Shown one piece after another: positions 1 to 9,356 of a stretch of DNA of 11,699 bases. This DNA is from Candidatus Calidifonticultor daggyaiensis (GTDB lineage: Bacteria; Actinomycetota; Humimicrobiia; Humimicrobiales; Humimicrobiaceae). The translations under genes were made by a program, and so were the position numbers. Numbering within the stretch: position 1 is the stretch's first letter; every line of letters begins with the position of its first letter. Below the pieces are notes generated by a model. The model searched no databases. It saw nothing but the letters and a program-made list of their open reading frames with translations, and had not been told where the DNA came from. Where the stretch lies: NCBI GenBank assembly GCA_015661035.1, contig JACVJA010000011.1, positions 1-11,699 on the forward strand. The letters run 5' to 3'.

Positions 1-177
1 TTTGGCAAAATTAAGGACATCACATTTGAGGGTCCAGATGTTAGATTAAAAATTCTTTCTCAAGATTTAGGAGAAATAGTTATTGAGGCAAAAAGTGATG
101 AAATTTATTATAAAAATTTAAAACAAGAAGATGAAGTTTTGTTTTTCTGGAATATTACAGATGGCTTAATTTTGTAA
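1..177 (+). CDS. C-terminal fragment of ABC transporter ATP-binding protein (TOBE-like domain)
   Basis: The window opens inside a plus-strand reading frame of 58 codons ending in TAA at 175-177; the 5' part lies outside. The peptide begins FGKIKDITFEGPDVRLKI and ends FFWNITDGLIL. This short beta-rich pattern (a G-x-I start, a 'V...L' strand pair, then a closing segment ending in x-x-D-G-L-I) is what the C-terminal TOBE domain of PotA/FbpC-type import ATPases looks like. No Walker or signature motif is in view, so the transport substrate cannot be told; spermidine/putrescine-type is the commonest match. The last 12 bases overlap the stop end of the convergent ligase gene. Identification rests on fold-like pattern only and is moderate. 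Confidence 0.5.
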   Translation, partial: FGKIKDITFEGPDVRLKILSQDLGEIVIEAKSDEIYYKNLKQEDEVLFFWNITDGLIL

Positions 178-1923
178 ATTTATAATTTTTTCAAGCAATT
201 GAATTTTTATTTTTGTAAATCCTTCAAATTTGCCAACATATGCATCTTCATATTTCCCTAAATCATAACATGTTTTATTATCTATATTTATTAAAATTCC
301 ATCTAGCCCTATTCTTTCAAAATCTTTTAAATGTTTTAAATAAAAAGCCTCACAACAAGCCCCGCCAAAAAATTTTACTCCGGTATTTTTTAAATTAATT
401 AAAGTTTGCTCCAGATGTTCATAACTAGTAATTGTAATATTTTTAATACTTTTTTTATTTAAAATTTTTATAGCATCTCCAACACTGCATTTACCACAAA
501 AGCTGCACCCTTGTTTATATCTAAATTTGCACTGAGGAAGTTTTGCACAATAAGGTAGTAAAAAAACTTCTAATTTTTTTAGTTTACTTATTTGGCTTAT
601 AAAACTATTAACAATTTTATTATTACCATTAATTTTATTATTAATTTTATTTTTATTATCTTTTTTGTCATTGTAATTAATTTCGCAACAATTAATTGTG
701 CAGCCTAATGGGTTTAATATATTATTAGTGATATTATTATTTATATTATTATAAATATTAAGGCCATTATTATAATTAGCCTTCATAAAAGGTTCGTTTA
801 TTAAGAAAATGTCTTTAATATATTTTTTGGGAAATTTAGCTTTTAAAACTTCAAGCTTATCTAAGCAGCCTTTAAATGCTTTAAAAATATTTTCCCAGCT
901 GACACCTTCTATTTTTTGGGAATAATTTTTATAAAAATCTTTTATGATTGCTTTTAAACAATCCTTATTGAGTGAAATATTTTTTAAAATTGATTCCAAA
1001 TCAAATATAGCTTTTTTGGGATATATAAAAAAATCGCCAGTAAAAATAACTCTTTTTAATATATTTCTTTTAAAATCTATTTCTGCATTACAATTTATAA
1101 GACCTAATGGATTAATAGAAGTGGATTTAACATTTAATAAATTATTTGCTTTTTTGATTCTGTAAATATGCTCTTTGCTTTTAAAATAACCTAATTTGTC
1201 TTTTAAAATCTTTTTTTCTAAATTTGAAAGTTCATCAAAATAAAATTCAAAGTCAAAAAATTCTTTAAAACCGTACAAAATATTATTTATTATATTTTGC
1301 CTGTCTGGGCAGTAACCCAACTCTCTTGAAAGCCAGGTAATTCTTTCTTTTAATGAATTTATTTCTTTATACTTTAATTTTTCAACCGGCACACGTAAAG
1401 AGCGAAGCATCATATTTATATCAATATCAACAAGCAATGTCCCCTGAAACATAAAGGCATTGCTAATTGAAGTTCCTCCTGATCCAGAAATCTTTTTTCC
1501 ATTTACTTCAATATCATTTCTTGGCCTAAAATTTGCATCAATATTAAAATATTTAAGTCCATTAGCAACTGCCGAACAAAAAAGCTTATAATAATCCTCA
1601 AATTTATTTACATATTTAGAAAAGCTATCCTTTTGGGCAAATATCTCCCAACCTACATCTTTCATGCCCCAATATAACGCTCCTCCACCAGTTATTCTTC
1701 TATTAATATCAATTTCATTTTTTTTACAAAAACTTGTTCTTACCTCATCTTCAATAGACTGAAAATAGCCTACTAAAACACAGTGGGGATTAAAGCTTAA
1801 AAAACGTATAGTATCAGGAATTTTATTATCTTCGCGAAGCTCAAGAAGTATTTCATCAATTGCCATATTTTCAGCAGCAGTTAAACTTTTGGTATCTATT
1901 ACTCTAATTTTTTTTGCAATCAT
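166..1923 (-). CDS. Lipoate-protein ligase fused to DUF116 (LplA-LplB-DUF116)
   Basis: Predicted cytosolic 585-aa protein with three parts. Residues 1-230 are an LplA/LipB/BPL catalytic domain: AAENMAIDE near residue 16, RRITGGGALYWG at 75-86 (the RRxSGGG lipoyl-AMP site) and NDIEVNGKKISGSG at 136-149, with K144 at the position of the essential LplA lysine. Residues about 245-355 resemble the LplB accessory domain (IDFKRNILKRVIFTGDFF, then a helical tail). Residues 383-440 form an Asn-rich linker. Residues about 450-575 match DUF116: LLPYCAKLPQC, CSFCGKC and GGACCEAF, with eight Cys (459, 465, 473, 476, 479, 523, 524, 552), suggesting a metal or Fe-S site. Known LplA enzymes attach lipoate or octanoate to a lysine of E2 or GcvH. 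The DUF116 role is unknown. The ATG fits the family N-terminus but has no clear RBS. It lies 88 bp downstream of an MFS gene, probably co-transcribed, and the LipS-like pair is close by. Confidence 0.88.
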   Translation of the reverse strand: MIAKKIRVIDTKSLTAAENMAIDEILLELREDNKIPDTIRFLSFNPHCVLVGYFQSIEDEVRTSFCKKNEIDINRRITGGGALYWGMKDVGWEIFAQKDSFSKYVNKFEDYYKLFCSAVANGLKYFNIDANFRPRNDIEVNGKKISGSGGTSISNAFMFQGTLLVDIDINMMLRSLRVPVEKLKYKEINSLKERITWLSRELGYCPDRQNIINNILYGFKEFFDFEFYFDELSNLEKKILKDKLGYFKSKEHIYRIKKANNLLNVKSTSINPLGLINCNAEIDFKRNILKRVIFTGDFFIYPKKAIFDLESILKNISLNKDCLKAIIKDFYKNYSQKIEGVSWENIFKAFKGCLDKLEVLKAKFPKKYIKDIFLINEPFMKANYNNGLNIYNNINNNITNNILNPLGCTINCCEINYNDKKDNKNKINNKINGNNKIVNSFISQISKLKKLEVFLLPYCAKLPQCKFRYKQGCSFCGKCSVGDAIKILNKKSIKNITITSYEHLEQTLINLKNTGVKFFGGACCEAFYLKHLKDFERIGLDGILINIDNKTCYDLGKYEDAYVGKFEGFTKIKIQLLEKIINLQN

Positions 1924-2011: not shown

Positions 2012-3334
2012 TTAAATTTTAGATGTTTCCTTTATTCTCTCTTTTGGTACCCTGACCACTGTAATTATTATAAGACCGCTTATTAGAAAGACAAGAGTGC
2101 TAAGGAGTGCAATTTTCTGGTTTTTCGTAAAATATGACAAGAGACCAAAAACAACTGGTCCTAAAACACCAGAAAACTTACCGCCTATTGCATAAAAGCT
2201 GAAGTACTCTGCTTCCTTGTCATACGGAGTTAAAAAACTCATAAGACTCCTGCTTGCTATCAGTGTTGACCCTGTTAGAACGGAGGCCAGAATATAGACT
2301 ATATAAAAAATTATTTTTAAATTTACACTTGTAATGAGTATTATTACAGTACACCAAGCTATAAGAGTAATTATAATTACCGATTTTGCTCCAATTTTAT
2401 CAACAAGCCATCCAAAGAAAACAGAACTAATAATTACCGGAAAATGCCCGAGCATAAAAAGAAATGCAATTTCCTTAAGTGAAAGGTTAAGGGTATTTCT
2501 CCCATAAATTGCTGCATAAGCAGCAAGAATAGAAAAAGCATTGCTAAAAAGAAAAAATGAGGTTAAAAATCTTATAAGATTTTTATTTCTTTTCATTTCC
2601 TTAAAAGTTAAAGACAGACGTTTAAATCCAATCTTTAAATAAGATTCTCTTTGTAGAGACGTTTTATCATCAATATTGAAAGGTTTATCTTTTAAAAATA
2701 AAAATGAAGGCATTGCAAATATAATAAAATATAAGGCTGTAAGAATAAAACTTAGTTTTAGGTAAGGTATATTTTCTGATTCAAGCCCCCCGCCTAAAAA
2801 AGGATATATCATAAGAAGTGCAAAAAAACCACCCATATATCCAAATGCAAACCCAAGTCCAGAAATGAATCCCACATTGCTCTTATCAGAAAGTTCGGGC
2901 AAAAATGAATTATAAAACATCATAGATAACTGGTAGGTGATATTAGCTATTATAAATATAACCATTGCATACACGAGAGTACCAGAGCCAGTAAAGAATA
3001 AAAGCAGAACAAACAACACGCATATTAATGTAAAAATTATAAGAAATCTTCTTTTTGATCTAGAAATGTCTGCAACTGCTCCGCATATTGGGGCTAAAAA
3101 CGCAGCTATCAAAATTGAGGCAGCACTTGCTACGCCCCACATTAAATCACCAAAGTTTTTCTCATAAATATGTTCAGGTGCAATTACGTTTATAAAGAAT
3201 ACTGGAAAAATAACTGTTATAATTACTATAGCAAAAGAAGTATTAGCAAAATCATATAATGCCCAAGATAAAACAGAAAGATTCAATAAAAGTTTTAAAT
3301 TTTTTAAATTGAATCTTATAGGTTTATTAGCCAT
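2012..3334 (-). CDS. MFS transporter, UMF1 / Atg22-like family
   Basis: This 440-aa integral membrane protein has about 12 hydrophobic segments in two halves split by a charged loop (residues 215-255). Family marks are WALYDFANTSFA at 24-35, GAVADISRSKRRF at 85-97 (the loop 2-3 motif A of MFS carriers), YNSFLPELSD then GFISGLGFAFGYMGG at 141-169, a second-half motif FGWLVDKIGAK at 307-317, and SRSLMSFLTP ... YFSFYAIGGKFSGVLGP at 361-393. These fit the UMF1 ('unknown major facilitator') group related to the yeast vacuolar effluxer Atg22. Substrates in bacteria are not established. It is first in a probable two-gene unit with the ligase-DUF116 gene and divergent from the radical-SAM genes, so a link to lipoate or fatty-acid traffic is possible but only inferred from position. 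The start chosen is the first ATG; no strong ribosome binding site precedes it. Confidence 0.85.
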   Translation of the reverse strand: MANKPIRFNLKNLKLLLNLSVLSWALYDFANTSFAIVIITVIFPVFFINVIAPEHIYEKNFGDLMWGVASAASILIAAFLAPICGAVADISRSKRRFLIIFTLICVLFVLLLFFTGSGTLVYAMVIFIIANITYQLSMMFYNSFLPELSDKSNVGFISGLGFAFGYMGGFFALLMIYPFLGGGLESENIPYLKLSFILTALYFIIFAMPSFLFLKDKPFNIDDKTSLQRESYLKIGFKRLSLTFKEMKRNKNLIRFLTSFFLFSNAFSILAAYAAIYGRNTLNLSLKEIAFLFMLGHFPVIISSVFFGWLVDKIGAKSVIIITLIAWCTVIILITSVNLKIIFYIVYILASVLTGSTLIASRSLMSFLTPYDKEAEYFSFYAIGGKFSGVLGPVVFGLLSYFTKNQKIALLSTLVFLISGLIIITVVRVPKERIKETSKI

Positions 3335-3794: not shown

Positions 3795-4925
3795 ATGGAA
3801 AGCCCGCAATATATACAAACAAGCCTGGCAGCAGCAATATCATTAGGTTTTGAAAATGGAAGCTTTAAAGAGCCAGTAAAATTAACTGGACTAAATCTCT
3901 TATTAACTTATAAAAATGGCTGTATTGGAAAGTGTGCTTATTGTGGAATTTCAGCATTGAAACAAAAAATAAGCTATAAGAAACAAAATTATTTATCAAA
4001 TGAATGTATTAAAGAATATACTGAAGATACCATTGAGGATAACGTTAAATACACTAAAGAAACAATACTAAAAAAAACTTTTATAAGAGTAAAATGGCCA
4101 ATTTATAAATTTACAGATGTTTTAGCTGCTTTAAAAGAAAAAGAGGCAAATTTTAAAAGAGTATGTATTTCAATGATTACTCATAAAAAAGCAGTTGATG
4201 ACACTATTTTTATAATAAATCAAGTTAAAAAAACTACTACTTTGCCAATAAGTATTTTAATTACCCCTACACTCATAAACTCTCCTTCTATTTTAGAAGA
4301 ATTTAAAAAAGCTGGAGCTGAAATGATTGGAGTTGCAATTGATACTGCAACTAAAACACTTTTTGAAAAATACAGAGGCAAAGGCGTTAAAGGACCTCAT
4401 AAATGGGAAAAATACTGGGAAGTTCTAAAATGGGCTGTTAGTGTTTTTGGACCATACAAGGTAGGCATTCATTTAATAATTGGCTTAGGCGAAACTCAAA
4501 AAGAAGCTGTTGAAATAATATATAAAGCACATAAACTTGGTGTAAAGACACATCTTTTTTCATTTTATCCCGAAAAATACACAAGACTAGAGGAATATAA
4601 TCCTCCTTTGCTTTCAGATTATAGAAAAATACAAATAGTAAGATATTTAATTAATGAAGAAAATTTAGAATTATCAAATATTTATTTTAATGAAAATGGC
4701 AAAATTTTAAAATTAGACTATGACCTGGAAAAACTTTTTGATGATGGCATAGCTTTTATGACTTCAGGGTGTCCATGTCAAGAAAATCAAAAGATATCTG
4801 CTTGCAATAGACCATTTGCTAACGAAAGACCTTCTGAGGCCTTTAGAAATTATCCTTATCTTCCAAGACAAAAAGATTTAGAAGAAATAAAAAAACAGGT
4901 TTTTTCTAGTTTTTTATATGTATAG
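3795..4925 (+). CDS. Radical-SAM protein, COG2516-like; candidate split lipoyl synthase subunit (LipS type)
   Basis: This 376-aa cytosolic protein has the radical-SAM [4Fe-4S] motif CIGKCAYC (C43, C47, C50). A TIM-barrel core follows: IRVKWPIY at 97-104, VCISMITH at 123-130, PISILITPTL at 151-160, VAIDTATKTLFEKYRG at 180-195, KWEKYWEVLKWAV at 203-215 and the glycine-rich HLIIGLGETQ at 226-235. This series matches 'biotin synthase-related' COG2516 proteins, the group I associate with LipS1/LipS2, which insert sulfur into octanoyl-lysine in archaea and some bacteria. The C-terminus has three more Cys (326, 328, 337) in TSGCPCQ...ACNRPFANERP, which may bind an auxiliary cluster. An extra charged stretch (about residues 57-96) separates the CxxxCxxC motif from the barrel. 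Which sulfur it would install cannot be told. The downstream partner is 157 bp away on the same strand. The start has no clear Shine-Dalgarno. Confidence 0.75.
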   Translation: MESPQYIQTSLAAAISLGFENGSFKEPVKLTGLNLLLTYKNGCIGKCAYCGISALKQKISYKKQNYLSNECIKEYTEDTIEDNVKYTKETILKKTFIRVKWPIYKFTDVLAALKEKEANFKRVCISMITHKKAVDDTIFIINQVKKTTTLPISILITPTLINSPSILEEFKKAGAEMIGVAIDTATKTLFEKYRGKGVKGPHKWEKYWEVLKWAVSVFGPYKVGIHLIIGLGETQKEAVEIIYKAHKLGVKTHLFSFYPEKYTRLEEYNPPLLSDYRKIQIVRYLINEENLELSNIYFNENGKILKLDYDLEKLFDDGIAFMTSGCPCQENQKISACNRPFANERPSEAFRNYPYLPRQKDLEEIKKQVFSSFLYV

Positions 4926-5082: not shown

Positions 5083-6303
5083 ATGGATATTAATTATGCT
5101 GCTAATTTTACTGCTAATAATGTTGAATATAATATCAATATCAACAATATGATAAATAATACTAATACTGATATTAACGCTAATAGTCAAACTAATAATA
5201 ATGATAAGAATTATAAGAATTATAAAATTCATCATAAAAATTATAATGGTAAAAAAAATAAAAATGTAACTTTTGCTGTGCCTGGCTCAAAAGTTTTTAT
5301 TAGCAAATATTATAAAAACAATCCAAATAGTTTTATAAATATAAGCCTTACAGGAAAAAATTGTGAGCTTTTATGCAAACATTGTAAAGGAATTCTTTTA
5401 AAAGATATGGAAGACATTAATTTTTTTTATGAAAGATTCAAATCAGAAAAAAGCTATAATCAATTAAACGGCGTATTATTTAGTGGAGGTTTTAATAAAG
5501 ATGGCGTGCTAATATTAAATAACGATAATATTAAAAAAATAGAGAAAATTAAATTTAATATAAAAAACAATGTAAACAAAAATGCAAAGTTTTACATGCA
5601 TTTAGGATTTATAGATAAAAACATTGTAAAGGTTTTAAATAGACTAAATTTTGACTGCCTTTTTGTAAATGTAATTGCAGATATATTTGCTATAAAAGAG
5701 GTTTATAATTTAAAAAACATCAAACCCGAAGACTTTTACGAAAACATTAAAATTTTAAAAGATGCCGGGCTAAAAGTATCTCCACATATTATAATTGGTC
5801 TAAATTATGGAAAAATAGAAACTGAGTTTGATGCTGTTAAAAATCTCTCAAATTTAGACATTGATTCTTTAGTATTTGTAATTGCAAAAAATTTATATAA
5901 AAATCATAATTTTTTAAAATCACAAATTGTTAACCAGAAGACTTATTTTACCCAGAATACTAATTTTAATAAGGATACTAATTTTAATTTGGATGCTAAC
6001 TTTAATCTGGATACTAATTTTAATAAGGATGCTAATTTTAACTACAATGTTTATTTTAACCAGGATAATTATATCTCATTAATTTTTAAACTTTTTGAGT
6101 ATTCAAAAATTCTAATGCCAAAAGTTCCAATAACATTAGGCTGTGCTAGGCCTCCAGGAGAGTTTTCGGCAGCAATAGAAAAAGAATTGTTAAAAAAAGG
6201 CATAAATGTTATATCCTTTCCTTCTGACAGCACAGTAGAATTTGCAGTTAAAAATAAATATAATTTCAGCTTTAAAGAAGATTGCTGTGCAGGTTGTTTA
6301 TAA
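5083..6303 (+). CDS. Radical-SAM protein, COG1856-like; candidate second LipS subunit, with tandem-repeat insertion
   Basis: This 406-aa protein has an Asn-rich N-terminus (residues 1-60) of no family character, so the true start may be further in; no strong RBS helps choose. The conserved part starts near FAVPGSKVFISKYY (64-77). NISLTGKNCELLCKHCKG at 86-103 carries the radical-SAM cysteines C94, C98 and C101. Then come VLFSGGFNKDG at 131-141, HLGFIDKNIVKVL at 173-185, HIIIGLNYGKIETEFDAV at 235-252 and TLGCARPPGEF at 351-361, ending in CCAGCL. This order resembles COG1856 ('homolog of biotin synthetase'), which I associate with the second LipS protein; C354, C401, C402 and C405 could bind a second cluster. 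Residues 287-328 are seven copies of a hexapeptide like TNFNKD. Beside the COG2516-like gene and near a lipoate ligase, a shared role in lipoyl sulfur insertion is the best reading. Confidence 0.72.
   Translation: MDINYAANFTANNVEYNININNMINNTNTDINANSQTNNNDKNYKNYKIHHKNYNGKKNKNVTFAVPGSKVFISKYYKNNPNSFINISLTGKNCELLCKHCKGILLKDMEDINFFYERFKSEKSYNQLNGVLFSGGFNKDGVLILNNDNIKKIEKIKFNIKNNVNKNAKFYMHLGFIDKNIVKVLNRLNFDCLFVNVIADIFAIKEVYNLKNIKPEDFYENIKILKDAGLKVSPHIIIGLNYGKIETEFDAVKNLSNLDIDSLVFVIAKNLYKNHNFLKSQIVNQKTYFTQNTNFNKDTNFNLDANFNLDTNFNKDANFNYNVYFNQDNYISLIFKLFEYSKILMPKVPITLGCARPPGEFSAAIEKELLKKGINVISFPSDSTVEFAVKNKYNFSFKEDCCAGCL
5941..6066 (+). repeat. In-frame 18-bp tandem repeat, seven copies, inside the second radical-SAM gene
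   Basis: Units run from 5941, 5959, 5977, 5995, 6013, 6031 and 6049, each 18 bp, encoding TYFTQN, TNFNKD, TNFNLD, ANFNLD, TNFNKD, ANFNYN and VYFNQD. Copies two and five are identical at DNA level (ACTAATTTTAATAAGGAT). The outer copies are the most diverged, typical of an array growing by internal duplication. The array sits between the barrel strand SLVFVIAKN and the conserved GCARPPG segment. Confidence 0.9.
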
Positions 6304-7562: not shown

Positions 7563-9356
7563 CTAAAATTCTAATAAAAACAAATCCATCAGTTTATATC
7601 CCTGATTAATAAAAATGCCACTTTTTTTAGCAGTAATTTCATCATATGTAACATATGTTCTATCTATATTGTCTTTAATATCTTTATCGCATTTACTATA
7701 TTTACTATCTTCATTATCTTTGATACCTTTATTATTTTCGATATCTTTGTCCATATTATAATCGTTTATATTAAAATTATTGTTTAAAGATTCTTTAAAT
7801 TCTAAAAATTTCTTTATTCGTTTTTTAAAATTACTACTATCTTTATCATAAATTAAAAACGGAACAGGTTCAGAAGTATGAGTCTTTAATGATATAGGAG
7901 TTGGGTGATCCGGCAGTACCATTATTCTGTAATTAAACCCAAATAAATCAAGATCTGCCTTTAGCTTACCTATAATTTTTTCATCAATTAATTCAATTGC
8001 TTTAATTTTGCAATTAATATTTCCTTGGTGACTGCATTCATCTGGAGCTTCAATATGAATATAGACAAAATCTTTTCCACTTTTTAACTGATTTATTGCA
8101 GCAGCAGCTTTCCCTTCAAAATTAGTATTAATATTGCCGGTTGCACCTGTAACATTAACAGCTTCCAGTCCAGCACAAATTCCAATTCCTTTTATTAAAT
8201 CAACTGCTGAAATTACTGCACCTTTCTTTTTATATTTCTTATAAAAACTGTCTATTTTAGGTTTTTTTGCTTTAGCCCAAATCCATATAGCATTTGCGGG
8301 ATTCTTTGCTTTCTTTTTTCTTTCTAAATTTATTGGATGGTTTTTTAAAAGTTCTGAAGCCTTTTTCATAAGATTAGTCAAAATATGTATTTCAGATATT
8401 TTTTTTAGTTCTGAAATAAAAATCTTATCAGACCTTAGATCGTTAATCTCTGGATTAAAATATTCATCCTCAATAAATTCCGTTGCAGCGTTTTTTACAT
8501 TTTTAGCGCTTAAATTATTTAATTTTAATTTTAAATTTAATTTTAATTTAGAAAAATCAGTATCTGCAATTTTAGGCAGATAATTTTTTATTATTTTCCC
8601 CGAAATGTCATGAGGAGGAGTTAATATGATATCCTTAGTATCATCAGAAATTCCGAAATAACTAACATTGCTGACTTTTAAATTACTAATTAGTTCATTT
8701 ATTACATTATCAAAATCAATATCAATATTTTTAGAAGTTACATTTTCTTTATAAATTCTTTCTATTATTTTTTTTTCTAAAAAATTATTTAAAAAAACAT
8801 TATTTATGCTTTTATTATTAACATTATTAACAATAATATTATTAATATTTTTAATGTTAACATTTTTAAAAACAATTACATGTCTATAACTAACACCAGC
8901 ATAAAAATTTAAGAATTCATTATTTAAATTTTTAGAAAGATAATCAATTAATATTTTTGCTTCTTCAGTTGAAATCTCGCCAGCAGAATAGTCAATTAAT
9001 CGCCTATCTTCAAAATTTTCTTCTTTTGATAAAGTAACTAAATTGCACCTATAAGTTATATCCTCATCTTCTAAATTAACACCAATGCTTACTGCCTCTA
9101 AAGAAGACCTCCCAGTAGAATATTTTAAAGGATCATAGCCTAAAATAGACAAATTTGCAGTATCACTGCCGGGAGACATTCCGTCTGGTATTGTTTTTAC
9201 AAGCCCTAAAAATCCATGACTTGCTAAAAAATCCATATTTGGTTTACATGCTGCCTTTAATGGAGTGACATTTCCAATTTTTTCAATTGGGTAATCTGAA
9301 GCACCATCAATTAATACTACAATAAATTTTTTTTGAGAACCTGATAAATTATCCAT
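7563..9356 (-). CDS. apgM-family protein, probable alternative homoserine kinase
   Basis: A 597-aa member of the alkaline-phosphatase-like, cofactor-independent phosphoglycerate mutase family (archaeal apgM type). Seen: FIVVLIDGASDYP at 11-23 with metal-binding D18, GMSPGSDTANLSILGYDP at 59-76 with S64 as the phospho-acceptor, YSTGRSSLEAVSIGV at 79-93, LTPPHDISGK at 245-254, IHIEAPDECSHQGN at 433-446, LPDHPTPISLKTHTSEPVPF at 481-500, and the closing SGIFINQGYKLMDLFL at 579-594. TIGRFAM separates a subfamily of these proteins, found with threonine genes, as proposed homoserine kinase; lying after hom and thrC with no thrB in view, this gene fits that role. The glycolytic mutase is the alternative. 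Members are usually near 400 aa; the excess is Asn/Lys-rich insertions at about 166-235 and 520-565, plus a smaller one at 268-310. The first ATG matches the family start, without a good RBS. Confidence 0.82.
   Translation of the reverse strand: MDNLSGSQKKFIVVLIDGASDYPIEKIGNVTPLKAACKPNMDFLASHGFLGLVKTIPDGMSPGSDTANLSILGYDPLKYSTGRSSLEAVSIGVNLEDEDITYRCNLVTLSKEENFEDRRLIDYSAGEISTEEAKILIDYLSKNLNNEFLNFYAGVSYRHVIVFKNVNIKNINNIIVNNVNNKSINNVFLNNFLEKKIIERIYKENVTSKNIDIDFDNVINELISNLKVSNVSYFGISDDTKDIILTPPHDISGKIIKNYLPKIADTDFSKLKLNLKLKLNNLSAKNVKNAATEFIEDEYFNPEINDLRSDKIFISELKKISEIHILTNLMKKASELLKNHPINLERKKKAKNPANAIWIWAKAKKPKIDSFYKKYKKKGAVISAVDLIKGIGICAGLEAVNVTGATGNINTNFEGKAAAAINQLKSGKDFVYIHIEAPDECSHQGNINCKIKAIELIDEKIIGKLKADLDLFGFNYRIMVLPDHPTPISLKTHTSEPVPFLIYDKDSSNFKKRIKKFLEFKESLNNNFNINDYNMDKDIENNKGIKDNEDSKYSKCDKDIKDNIDRTYVTYDEITAKKSGIFINQGYKLMDLFLLEF

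Follow-up and report, generated by a model that had tools for sequence, protein, structure and literature searches.

A lipoate ligase with an eight-cysteine DUF116 tail: a candidate redox partner of LipT beside LipS1 and LipS2

Candidatus Calidifonticultor daggyaiensis (Actinomycetota) encodes, on contig JACVJA010000011.1, a lipoate/octanoate-protein ligase that ends in a DUF116 domain (Lpl-DUF116). The window, meaning the whole stretch of DNA analysed here, is this entire contig of 11,699 nucleotides. The gene for the 585-residue protein occupies positions 166..1923 on the minus strand, as defined by its open reading frame (ORF) and by Pfam and NCBIfam matches; the plus-strand reading of 166-1923 is riddled with stops, and the genuine ORF is that of the minus strand, on which all parts of the protein described next are located. 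The LplA catalytic domain (residues 16-219; 1267..1878) has the ligase motif RRITGGG and the lysine K144, as the initial annotation had it, and matches Pfam PF21948 (LplA-B_cat) at E 3.5e-44, with 151.6 bits against a curated cut-off of 27. R75, R76, T78, G79-G81 and K144 are invariant in a 75-row alignment, position 77 being I or L, and the intact motifs suggest octanoyl/lipoyl ligase activity. The LplB-like accessory domain that had also been proposed (residues 280-339; 907..1086) finds support in an alignment of residues 274-349 to 3r07_C, a solved LplB chain, but both family models fall short: Lip_prot_lig_C reaches 22.4 bits over residues 280-339, just below its cut-off of 24, and NCBIfam LplB reaches 35.5 bits over residues 280-352 against a cut-off of 65. 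Lip_prot_lig_C (PF10437) was matched at E 0.001 in 54 of the 75 Lpl-DUF116 homologues scanned. An asparagine-rich linker (residues 394-445, with 17 Asn in 52; 589..744), most of which faces gaps in the 20 other sequences of a smaller alignment, leads to the DUF116 domain, whose core (residues 451-585; 169..573), delimited with Pfam and AlphaFold2, has a predicted Rossmann-like alpha/beta fold. The expected DUF116 match was found at residues 428-554 (PF01976; 31.0 bits for the whole protein and 36.0 bits for the domain slice, cut-off 25).

Homologue comparison identifies eight invariant cysteines in this domain: C459, C465, C473, C476, C479, C523, C524 and C552 (268..549, minus strand). All eight, including the CC pair pointed out earlier, are kept in each of the best 120 homologues listed, the window protein included, and in 79 of 79 ORFs recovered from 80 named loci. 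One cysteine regular expression fits 118 of the 120, and the remaining two, P0047 and P0050, deviate only by CYE for CYD. The AlphaFold2 model of the domain (pLDDT 85.3, pTM 0.81) is a Rossmann-like alpha/beta domain in which the cysteines follow strands 1, 3 and 4 of the predicted sheet, and they therefore probably sit on one sheet edge. Seven of the eight are in register with those of canonical stand-alone DUF116 proteins, which have no ligase (hhalign, 96.3% probability); the eighth, C523, is present in the lipoate-type domain and missing from the canonical family. A search of the PDB with the DUF116 alignment returned no sequence relative (best E 0.95). In a fold comparison the predicted fold is a common Rossmann-like arrangement, and no known Fe-S protein was recognisable among the 50 fold matches listed, which does not exclude one. 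No ferredoxin family is among the Pfam matches of the window protein. The layout of the eight cysteines suits an Fe-S site, and to that extent the earlier suggestion of an Fe-S or sulfur-handling site stands, whether the site would pass on sulfur or electrons.

The fusion is a widespread family, and not an isolated oddity. A protein search gave 2486 matches at E 0.001 among 8000 candidates scored, and PF21948 and PF01976 are both present in all of the best 120 of these 2486 proteins. When 75 aligned homologues (out of 189) were scanned singly, LplA-B_cat and DUF116 were both matched at E 0.001 in 75 of 75. In a genome scan (one genome per species, 12-row DUF116 query), 272 pattern matches yielded 202 relatives, the best 80 of which were taken as the named loci. 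These best 80 include Actinomycetota, Chloroflexota, Deltaproteobacteria/Thermodesulfobacteriota, Bacillota (among them Formimonas warabiya), Cloacimonadota and Nitrospirae, together with the archaeal Thermoplasmata, Altiarchaeales, Bathyarchaeota and Hydrothermarchaeota and other lineages; the nearest named relative among them is Candidatus Humimicrobium oleiphilum, also in the Actinomycetota. The ligase glycine motif lies upstream of DUF116 in 74 of the 79 ORFs recovered (L015 yielded none). The five ORFs without it comprise three that run off contig ends, one broken by unread bases and the frame-split L069, where the LplA part lies just upstream of the frame break. The eight-cysteine type of DUF116 is therefore found almost only as a ligase tail. 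It is extremely improbable that this reflects an annotation artefact, such as a chance fusion or a weak domain match; although the window protein scores only 31 bits to PF01976, such an artefact is ruled out by the identical architecture of the 75 scanned homologues, which recurs in named genomes of many phyla, and by the register of the cysteines in the hhalign comparison of the two DUF116 sets. A search of viral contigs that used the window protein alone found no relative. Matches occur in 51 plasmid records, none with 80% coverage of the protein; in the five listed, it is the ligase part that aligns.

Further along the window, on the plus strand, are two radical S-adenosylmethionine (radical SAM) genes, LipS2 (3795..4925; NCBIfam NF053743, 228.5 bits against a cut-off of 270, E 1.1e-67) and LipS1 (5083..6303; NF053742, 160.4 bits against a cut-off of 230, E 6.6e-47). 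The two scores are thus under the NCBIfam equivalog cut-offs. In an alignment inspected by eye, both keep the CxxxCxxC motif and the auxiliary-cluster cysteine positions of the Thermococcus kodakarensis enzymes, in which the ligand cysteines have been identified (PMC9585515). The window LipS2 also has an insert of ~25-30 amino acids directly after the radical-SAM motif, missing in the nine relatives that cover the region. Flanks of up to 9 kb around the 80 named loci, often truncated where a contig ends, were searched in six frames with LipT, LipS1 and LipS2 HMMs built from these same loci, with a threshold of >100 bits for LipT. LipT was found at 63 loci, LipS2 at 60, LipS1 at 55, any of the three at 69 and all three at 48; at least one LipT call is doubtful, that at L030, where a 116-bit match lies at the far end. 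Of the 29 loci flanked by 6 kb or more to either side, 24 have LipT, 25 LipS2 and 22 LipS1. The genes commonly run ligase-LipT-LipS2-LipS1 or ligase-LipT-LipS1-LipS2. Among the nearest relatives in the Actinomycetota, LipS1-LipS2 is divergent from ligase-LipT, as it is in the window apart from the transporter gene inserted there. Contig C251 of the same genome carries a LipT-like ORF of 520 amino acids (TIGR02032, 107 bits against a cut-off of 158.8), and it may be that LipT is missing beside the ligase because the contig ends there.

Co-occurrence across genomes agrees with this linkage. Three phylum samples totalling 590 genomes were used, from phyla picked for having a fusion-bearing member. 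In the window's phylum (198 genomes), LipS2 is present in 12, the eight-cysteine DUF116 in nine and both in nine. The phylum of G211, whose locus L043 is a Deltaproteobacteria record, has 33, 27 and 25 in 198 genomes, and that of G213, whose locus L046 is a Thermoplasmata record, has 43, 14 and 12 in 194. The totals are 88 genomes with LipS2, 50 with DUF116 and 46 with both, so that LipS2 occurs in 46 of 50 DUF116 genomes versus 42 of 540 others (Fisher p 4.7e-39, a value overstated by the lack of phylogenetic independence among genomes). Thresholds were set separately for each sample. In the window's phylum 131 of 198 genomes matched LipS2 at E 0.001, and only the 12 above 170 bits were counted (the next scored 52 bits); E 1e-30 was used for LipS2 in the other two phyla, and DUF116 was called at E 1e-5 in the window's phylum and at 1e-10 in the others. 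The four DUF116 genomes without LipS2 include G575, whose contig ends within LipS2, and G448, which has a truncated DUF116; the counts were left unchanged. The predicted tie of DUF116 to LipS1/LipS2 thus holds in this direction. The converse fails, since 42 LipS2 genomes have no DUF116; 31 of these belong to the archaeal sample, most of them having a LipS2 of a different lineage. The archaeal genome G213 has two LipS2 genes, one at L046 beside Lpl-DUF116 and one, of a short archaeal type, at L256 beside an unfused ligase.

LipT, a flavoprotein of the geranylgeranyl reductase superfamily (TIGR02032, 224 bits at L265 and 213 bits at L263, over the cut-off of 158.8), shows a tighter association. 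It is present in 39 of 45 DUF116 stretches, mostly adjoining the ligase, versus one of 42 LipS2 stretches without DUF116 (p 4.6e-17). Genomes G000, G208, G210, G213 and G224 are not among the 45, and the 42 exclude L256, where G213 has its second LipS2 gene. At the loci of the excluded genomes, L036 and L071 have LipT, L046 has none, L030 has the doubtful 116-bit match and the window's own genome has its copy on another contig. A LipT-like match at L230 (114 bits) was set aside as FixC. In addition, LplA, LplB, DUF116 and LipT are joined in a single chain in P0004 (948 amino acids) and in P0121 and P0122 (893 amino acids). P0004 comes from one contig and could be an assembly fault, while P0122 is represented by three member sequences on two contigs. 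P0121 and P0122 share 34-35% identity with P0004 over 98%, forming two distant sequence groups, and the ligase-DUF116-LipT fusions are likely to be of independent origin. The radical-SAM pair named as the partner by the initial annotation is indeed linked to DUF116, but the closest functional partner looks like LipT, not the radical-SAM pair alone.

Being conserved with LipT and fused to LipT, DUF116 is best read as its Fe-S partner, sited on the ligase that prepares the substrate. The model put forward here, with about an even chance of being right, places Lpl-DUF116 at the start of an Lpl-LipT-LipS2-LipS1 cassette, as its first enzyme, and takes DUF116 to be an Fe-S domain for electron transfer that would serve as LipT's redox partner and feed LipS2 and LipS1. 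Radical-SAM cleavage requires an electron. The LplA/LplB part would activate octanoate and attach it to a GcvH-type carrier, the eight cysteines of the Rossmann-like domain would hold one or more Fe-S clusters, most likely two [4Fe-4S], and electrons would pass to LipS2 and then to LipS1 before the octanoylated carrier has left the vicinity of the ligase. The analysis establishes the fusion, the conserved cysteines, the predicted fold, the gene linkage to LipT/LipS1/LipS2 and the LipT fusions; we infer the metal content, the cluster number, the direction of electron flow and the contact with LipS1/LipS2. LipT has earlier been proposed as an electron source (PMC10332631), and a geranylgeranyl-reductase-family enzyme of Methanosarcina acetivorans depends on a ferredoxin whose gene shares its locus (PMC10821996). 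It is quite improbable that LipT, drawing its electrons from DUF116, acts on the acyl chain and not on the radical-SAM enzymes, for instance by saturating a C8 precursor that has a double bond or by reducing the dithiolane. We know of no unsaturated C8 lipoate precursor. LipS2 works on saturated octanoyl chains in vitro (PMC9585515), whereas the TIGR02032 scores above the family cut-off at L265 and L263 would fit such a role, in that the geranylgeranyl reductase family reduces C=C bonds, with ferredoxin electrons in one member (PMC10821996).

DUF116 as a whole is not specific to lipoate, and a distribution alongside lipoate genes is seen for the eight-cysteine type but not for the entire family. 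In the G211 phylum, PF01976 was matched at E 1e-8 in 67 of 148 genomes. The best 30 of these 67 matches (L300-L329) are canonical, membrane-anchored DUF116 proteins; a formyltransferase (fmt-like) ORF adjoins 26 of the 30, and a NusB-domain gene, presumably RsmB/Sun-like, is nearby in 22. One representative of each neighbour was confirmed with Pfam (L323 for the formyltransferase). In the Actinomycetota sample, PF01976 was matched at E 1e-6 in 11 of 198 genomes, the lipoate-type copy of G029 scoring too low, and DUF116 proteins not of the lipoate type are stand-alone (in the window's own genome, G019, G047 and G147). In the three such loci read (L001, on contig C124 of the window's own genome, L330 and L331; L332 was left out), a stand-alone DUF116 of 150-170 amino acids lies between squalene-hopene cyclase and ispE-like genes, the cyclase being Pfam-confirmed for L001 and L331. 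A TetR-like gene is next in line at L330 and L331. This neighbourhood is a second DUF116 setting of unknown function. Since these other subfamilies lie beside genes that need no sulfur insertion, a general redox role fits better than a sulfur role. It is tentatively conceivable, although doubtful, that DUF116 represents a new class of redox protein, with a Rossmann/receiver-like fold and two [4Fe-4S] clusters, serving as the dedicated electron partner of geranylgeranyl-reductase-type flavoproteins. Built into the ligase for lipoate assembly, it would let one chain octanoylate the carrier and then power both sulfur insertions, and the hopanoid-linked relatives may act alike elsewhere.

An absence of LipA alongside DUF116 had also been anticipated. 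It was rejected as a correlate, a LipA match being present in 21 of 40 distinct DUF116 genomes (46 genomes were scored with 27 matching, and three DUF116-negative genomes and three duplicates were then removed; G231 has fragments below cut-off). The window's own genome has no LipA match, but is only 79.6% complete. At L077 (2559-5069), an 836-residue protein combines LplA, LplB and DUF116 with a C-terminal radical-SAM domain matching LipA; GcvH, LipT, LipS2 and LipS1 follow downstream, and its genome, G229, has two LipA matches. The window protein itself matches residues 40-326 of the 606 in NCBIfam NF053790, a bifunctional lipoate ligase/lipoyl synthase in which a ligase is likewise fused to a later pathway step. 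There the fused part is LipA and here it is DUF116, and the L077 protein has both.

The main alternative to electron transfer is that DUF116 is a built-in Fe-S carrier that, by analogy with NfuA, would rebuild the sacrificed auxiliary [4Fe-4S] clusters of LipS2 and LipS1. Cluster carriers usually hold one labile cluster and have few cysteines, and not eight invariant ones as in DUF116. In the characterised enzymes, LipS2 inserts the first sulfur at C8 and LipS1 the second at C6, spending their auxiliary clusters, which appear to supply the sulfur, and the ferredoxin-reduced enzymes achieve ~1.5 (LipS1) and ~1 (LipS2) turnovers (PMC9585515). NfuA and NFU1 regenerate LipA-type synthases (PMC9585516), a likeness that, as Fe-S helpers of a lipoyl synthase, they would share with DUF116 under this alternative only; NfuA has a two-cysteine CxxC per subunit, unlike the window protein, for which the NifU-like C-terminal domain with CxxC gave no Pfam match up to E 1. 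The one-turnover limit, the extra cysteine C523 that the canonical family lacks and the L077 protein, which joins Lpl-DUF116 to LipA, favour cluster delivery. The flavoprotein link, in which the tightest-linked and directly fused partner is LipT, and the DUF116 settings that do not involve sulfur, where no sulfur-insertion genes adjoin in the short stretches examined, favour electron transfer. In T. kodakarensis, moreover, SmsB2C2 appears capable of loading LipS1 and LipS2 (PMC12442378). Cluster delivery by DUF116 has a modest chance of being correct.

Several observations weigh against the electron-transfer model. No LipT, LipS1 or LipS2 was found near 11 of the 80 named loci, and L024, L026 and L070 lack all three despite at least 6 kb on both sides. 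In the LipT comparison, LipT is missing from the stretch examined at 6 of the 45 DUF116 loci, and the count covers neighbourhoods only (stretches of up to ~20 kb where contigs allowed) and not whole genomes; the DUF116-negative stretches are shorter (median 11.2 versus 16.1 kb, five of them <6 kb). Sulfur oxidisers pair LipT with an Lpl(AB) ligase (PMC10332631). The LipS2 tree (77 rows, a quick method with SH-aLRT support only and a midpoint root) places all 35 DUF116-associated rows, with the window LipS2 inside their clade, in one 42-row group (support 98). That group also holds seven DUF116-negative rows, all from the G211 sample, and the DUF116 label needs three changes on the tree. Six of the negative rows form a lineage in which both detected ligases (L215 and L220) are of a different kind and LipT was not seen in any member, several stretches being short. 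At L213, a ligase of the same lineage without DUF116 has GcvH, LipT, LipS1 and LipS2 alongside; because this ligase nests beside a fused one in the ligase tree, DUF116 is lost here, and LipT can apparently work without it. The tree thus offers only two independent DUF116/LipT contrasts, one agreeing and one neutral, so that a sign test has no power, and the LipT-DUF116 link is therefore largely one inherited cassette.

As L213 illustrates, DUF116 can be lost, which would suit a structural role: the domain may bind a structural metal (zinc or Fe-S) and mainly dock LipT, LipS1/LipS2 or the lipoyl carrier, with no redox or cluster chemistry. The common Rossmann-like arrangement and the proximity that a fusion in itself implies are also consistent with docking. 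However, eight strictly invariant cysteines in highly diverged sequences suggest chemistry independent of the partner, and seven of them are in register with stand-alone DUF116 proteins without a ligase. A docking role is considered unlikely.

Parts of this system resemble known ones. The sLpl(AB)-LipS1/S2(-LipT) pathway (Tanabe et al. 2023, PMC10332631) shares the cluster of an Lpl(AB)-type ligase, LipS1, LipS2 and LipT, but the ligase described here bears a C-terminal eight-cysteine DUF116; the main text of that paper mentions neither PF01976, COG1852 nor DUF116. The DUF116 family (COG1852/arCOG02078) was treated in a 2015 comparative study, which predicted electron transfer for it and, as here, a Rossmann/flavodoxin-like fold (PMC5898192); the initial statement that DUF116 has no described function was therefore close to right. 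The domain of the ligase belongs to the same family, with its seven cysteines in register, but differs in being a C-terminal ligase domain and not membrane-anchored, in the extra C523 and in having no ATGGT-like motif. In the geranylgeranyl reductase-ferredoxin pairs (PMC10821996), a flavoprotein of the same superfamily likewise stands beside an Fe-S protein, whereas here the Fe-S domain is a candidate one, fused to the ligase and without a ferredoxin match. Within the limited body of papers searched, supplements excluded, none mentions both DUF116 and lipoate, and PMC5898192 is the one that names DUF116. The lipoate pathway itself is established, but no description was found there of the fused domain, of its eighth cysteine, of its breadth or of the LipT fusions.

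The window and its genome show some further features. Between the divergent lip genes is an MFS/ATG22-like transporter (2012..3334, minus strand; Pfam E 2e-47), for which tblastn at E 1e-8 across the compared loci matched only pieces of its own genome; transport of octanoate or lipoate would be a guess. Asparagine-rich low-complexity inserts or short tandem repeats occur in several genes (589-744, 5083-5260, 5925-6067 and 8784-8876), and LipS1 has tandem repeats of 18 and 54 bp. In the compared relatives, the asparagine-rich insert of Lpl is mostly gapped and those of LipS1 are shorter or missing. No Rfam match was found, and a promoter scan stayed near shuffle level. On contig C181 (L298), the GcvH gene of the genome has a gene for a CCG-domain/4Fe-4S protein on one side and one for a RACo-like protein on the other, an arrangement that may hint at a lipoylated-carrier pathway of an unusual kind.

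LipS1 and LipS2 stall at about one turnover in vitro with a ferredoxin system (PMC9585515), and Lpl-DUF116 is a concrete candidate for the missing reductant or cluster-rebuilding part. For comparison, L213 provides a useful natural deletion of DUF116. The link to lipoate gives an old family of unknown function a testable biochemical setting, and a cysteine-rich tail that travels with radical enzymes and a flavin enzyme suggests that lipoate synthesis has its electron supply built in.

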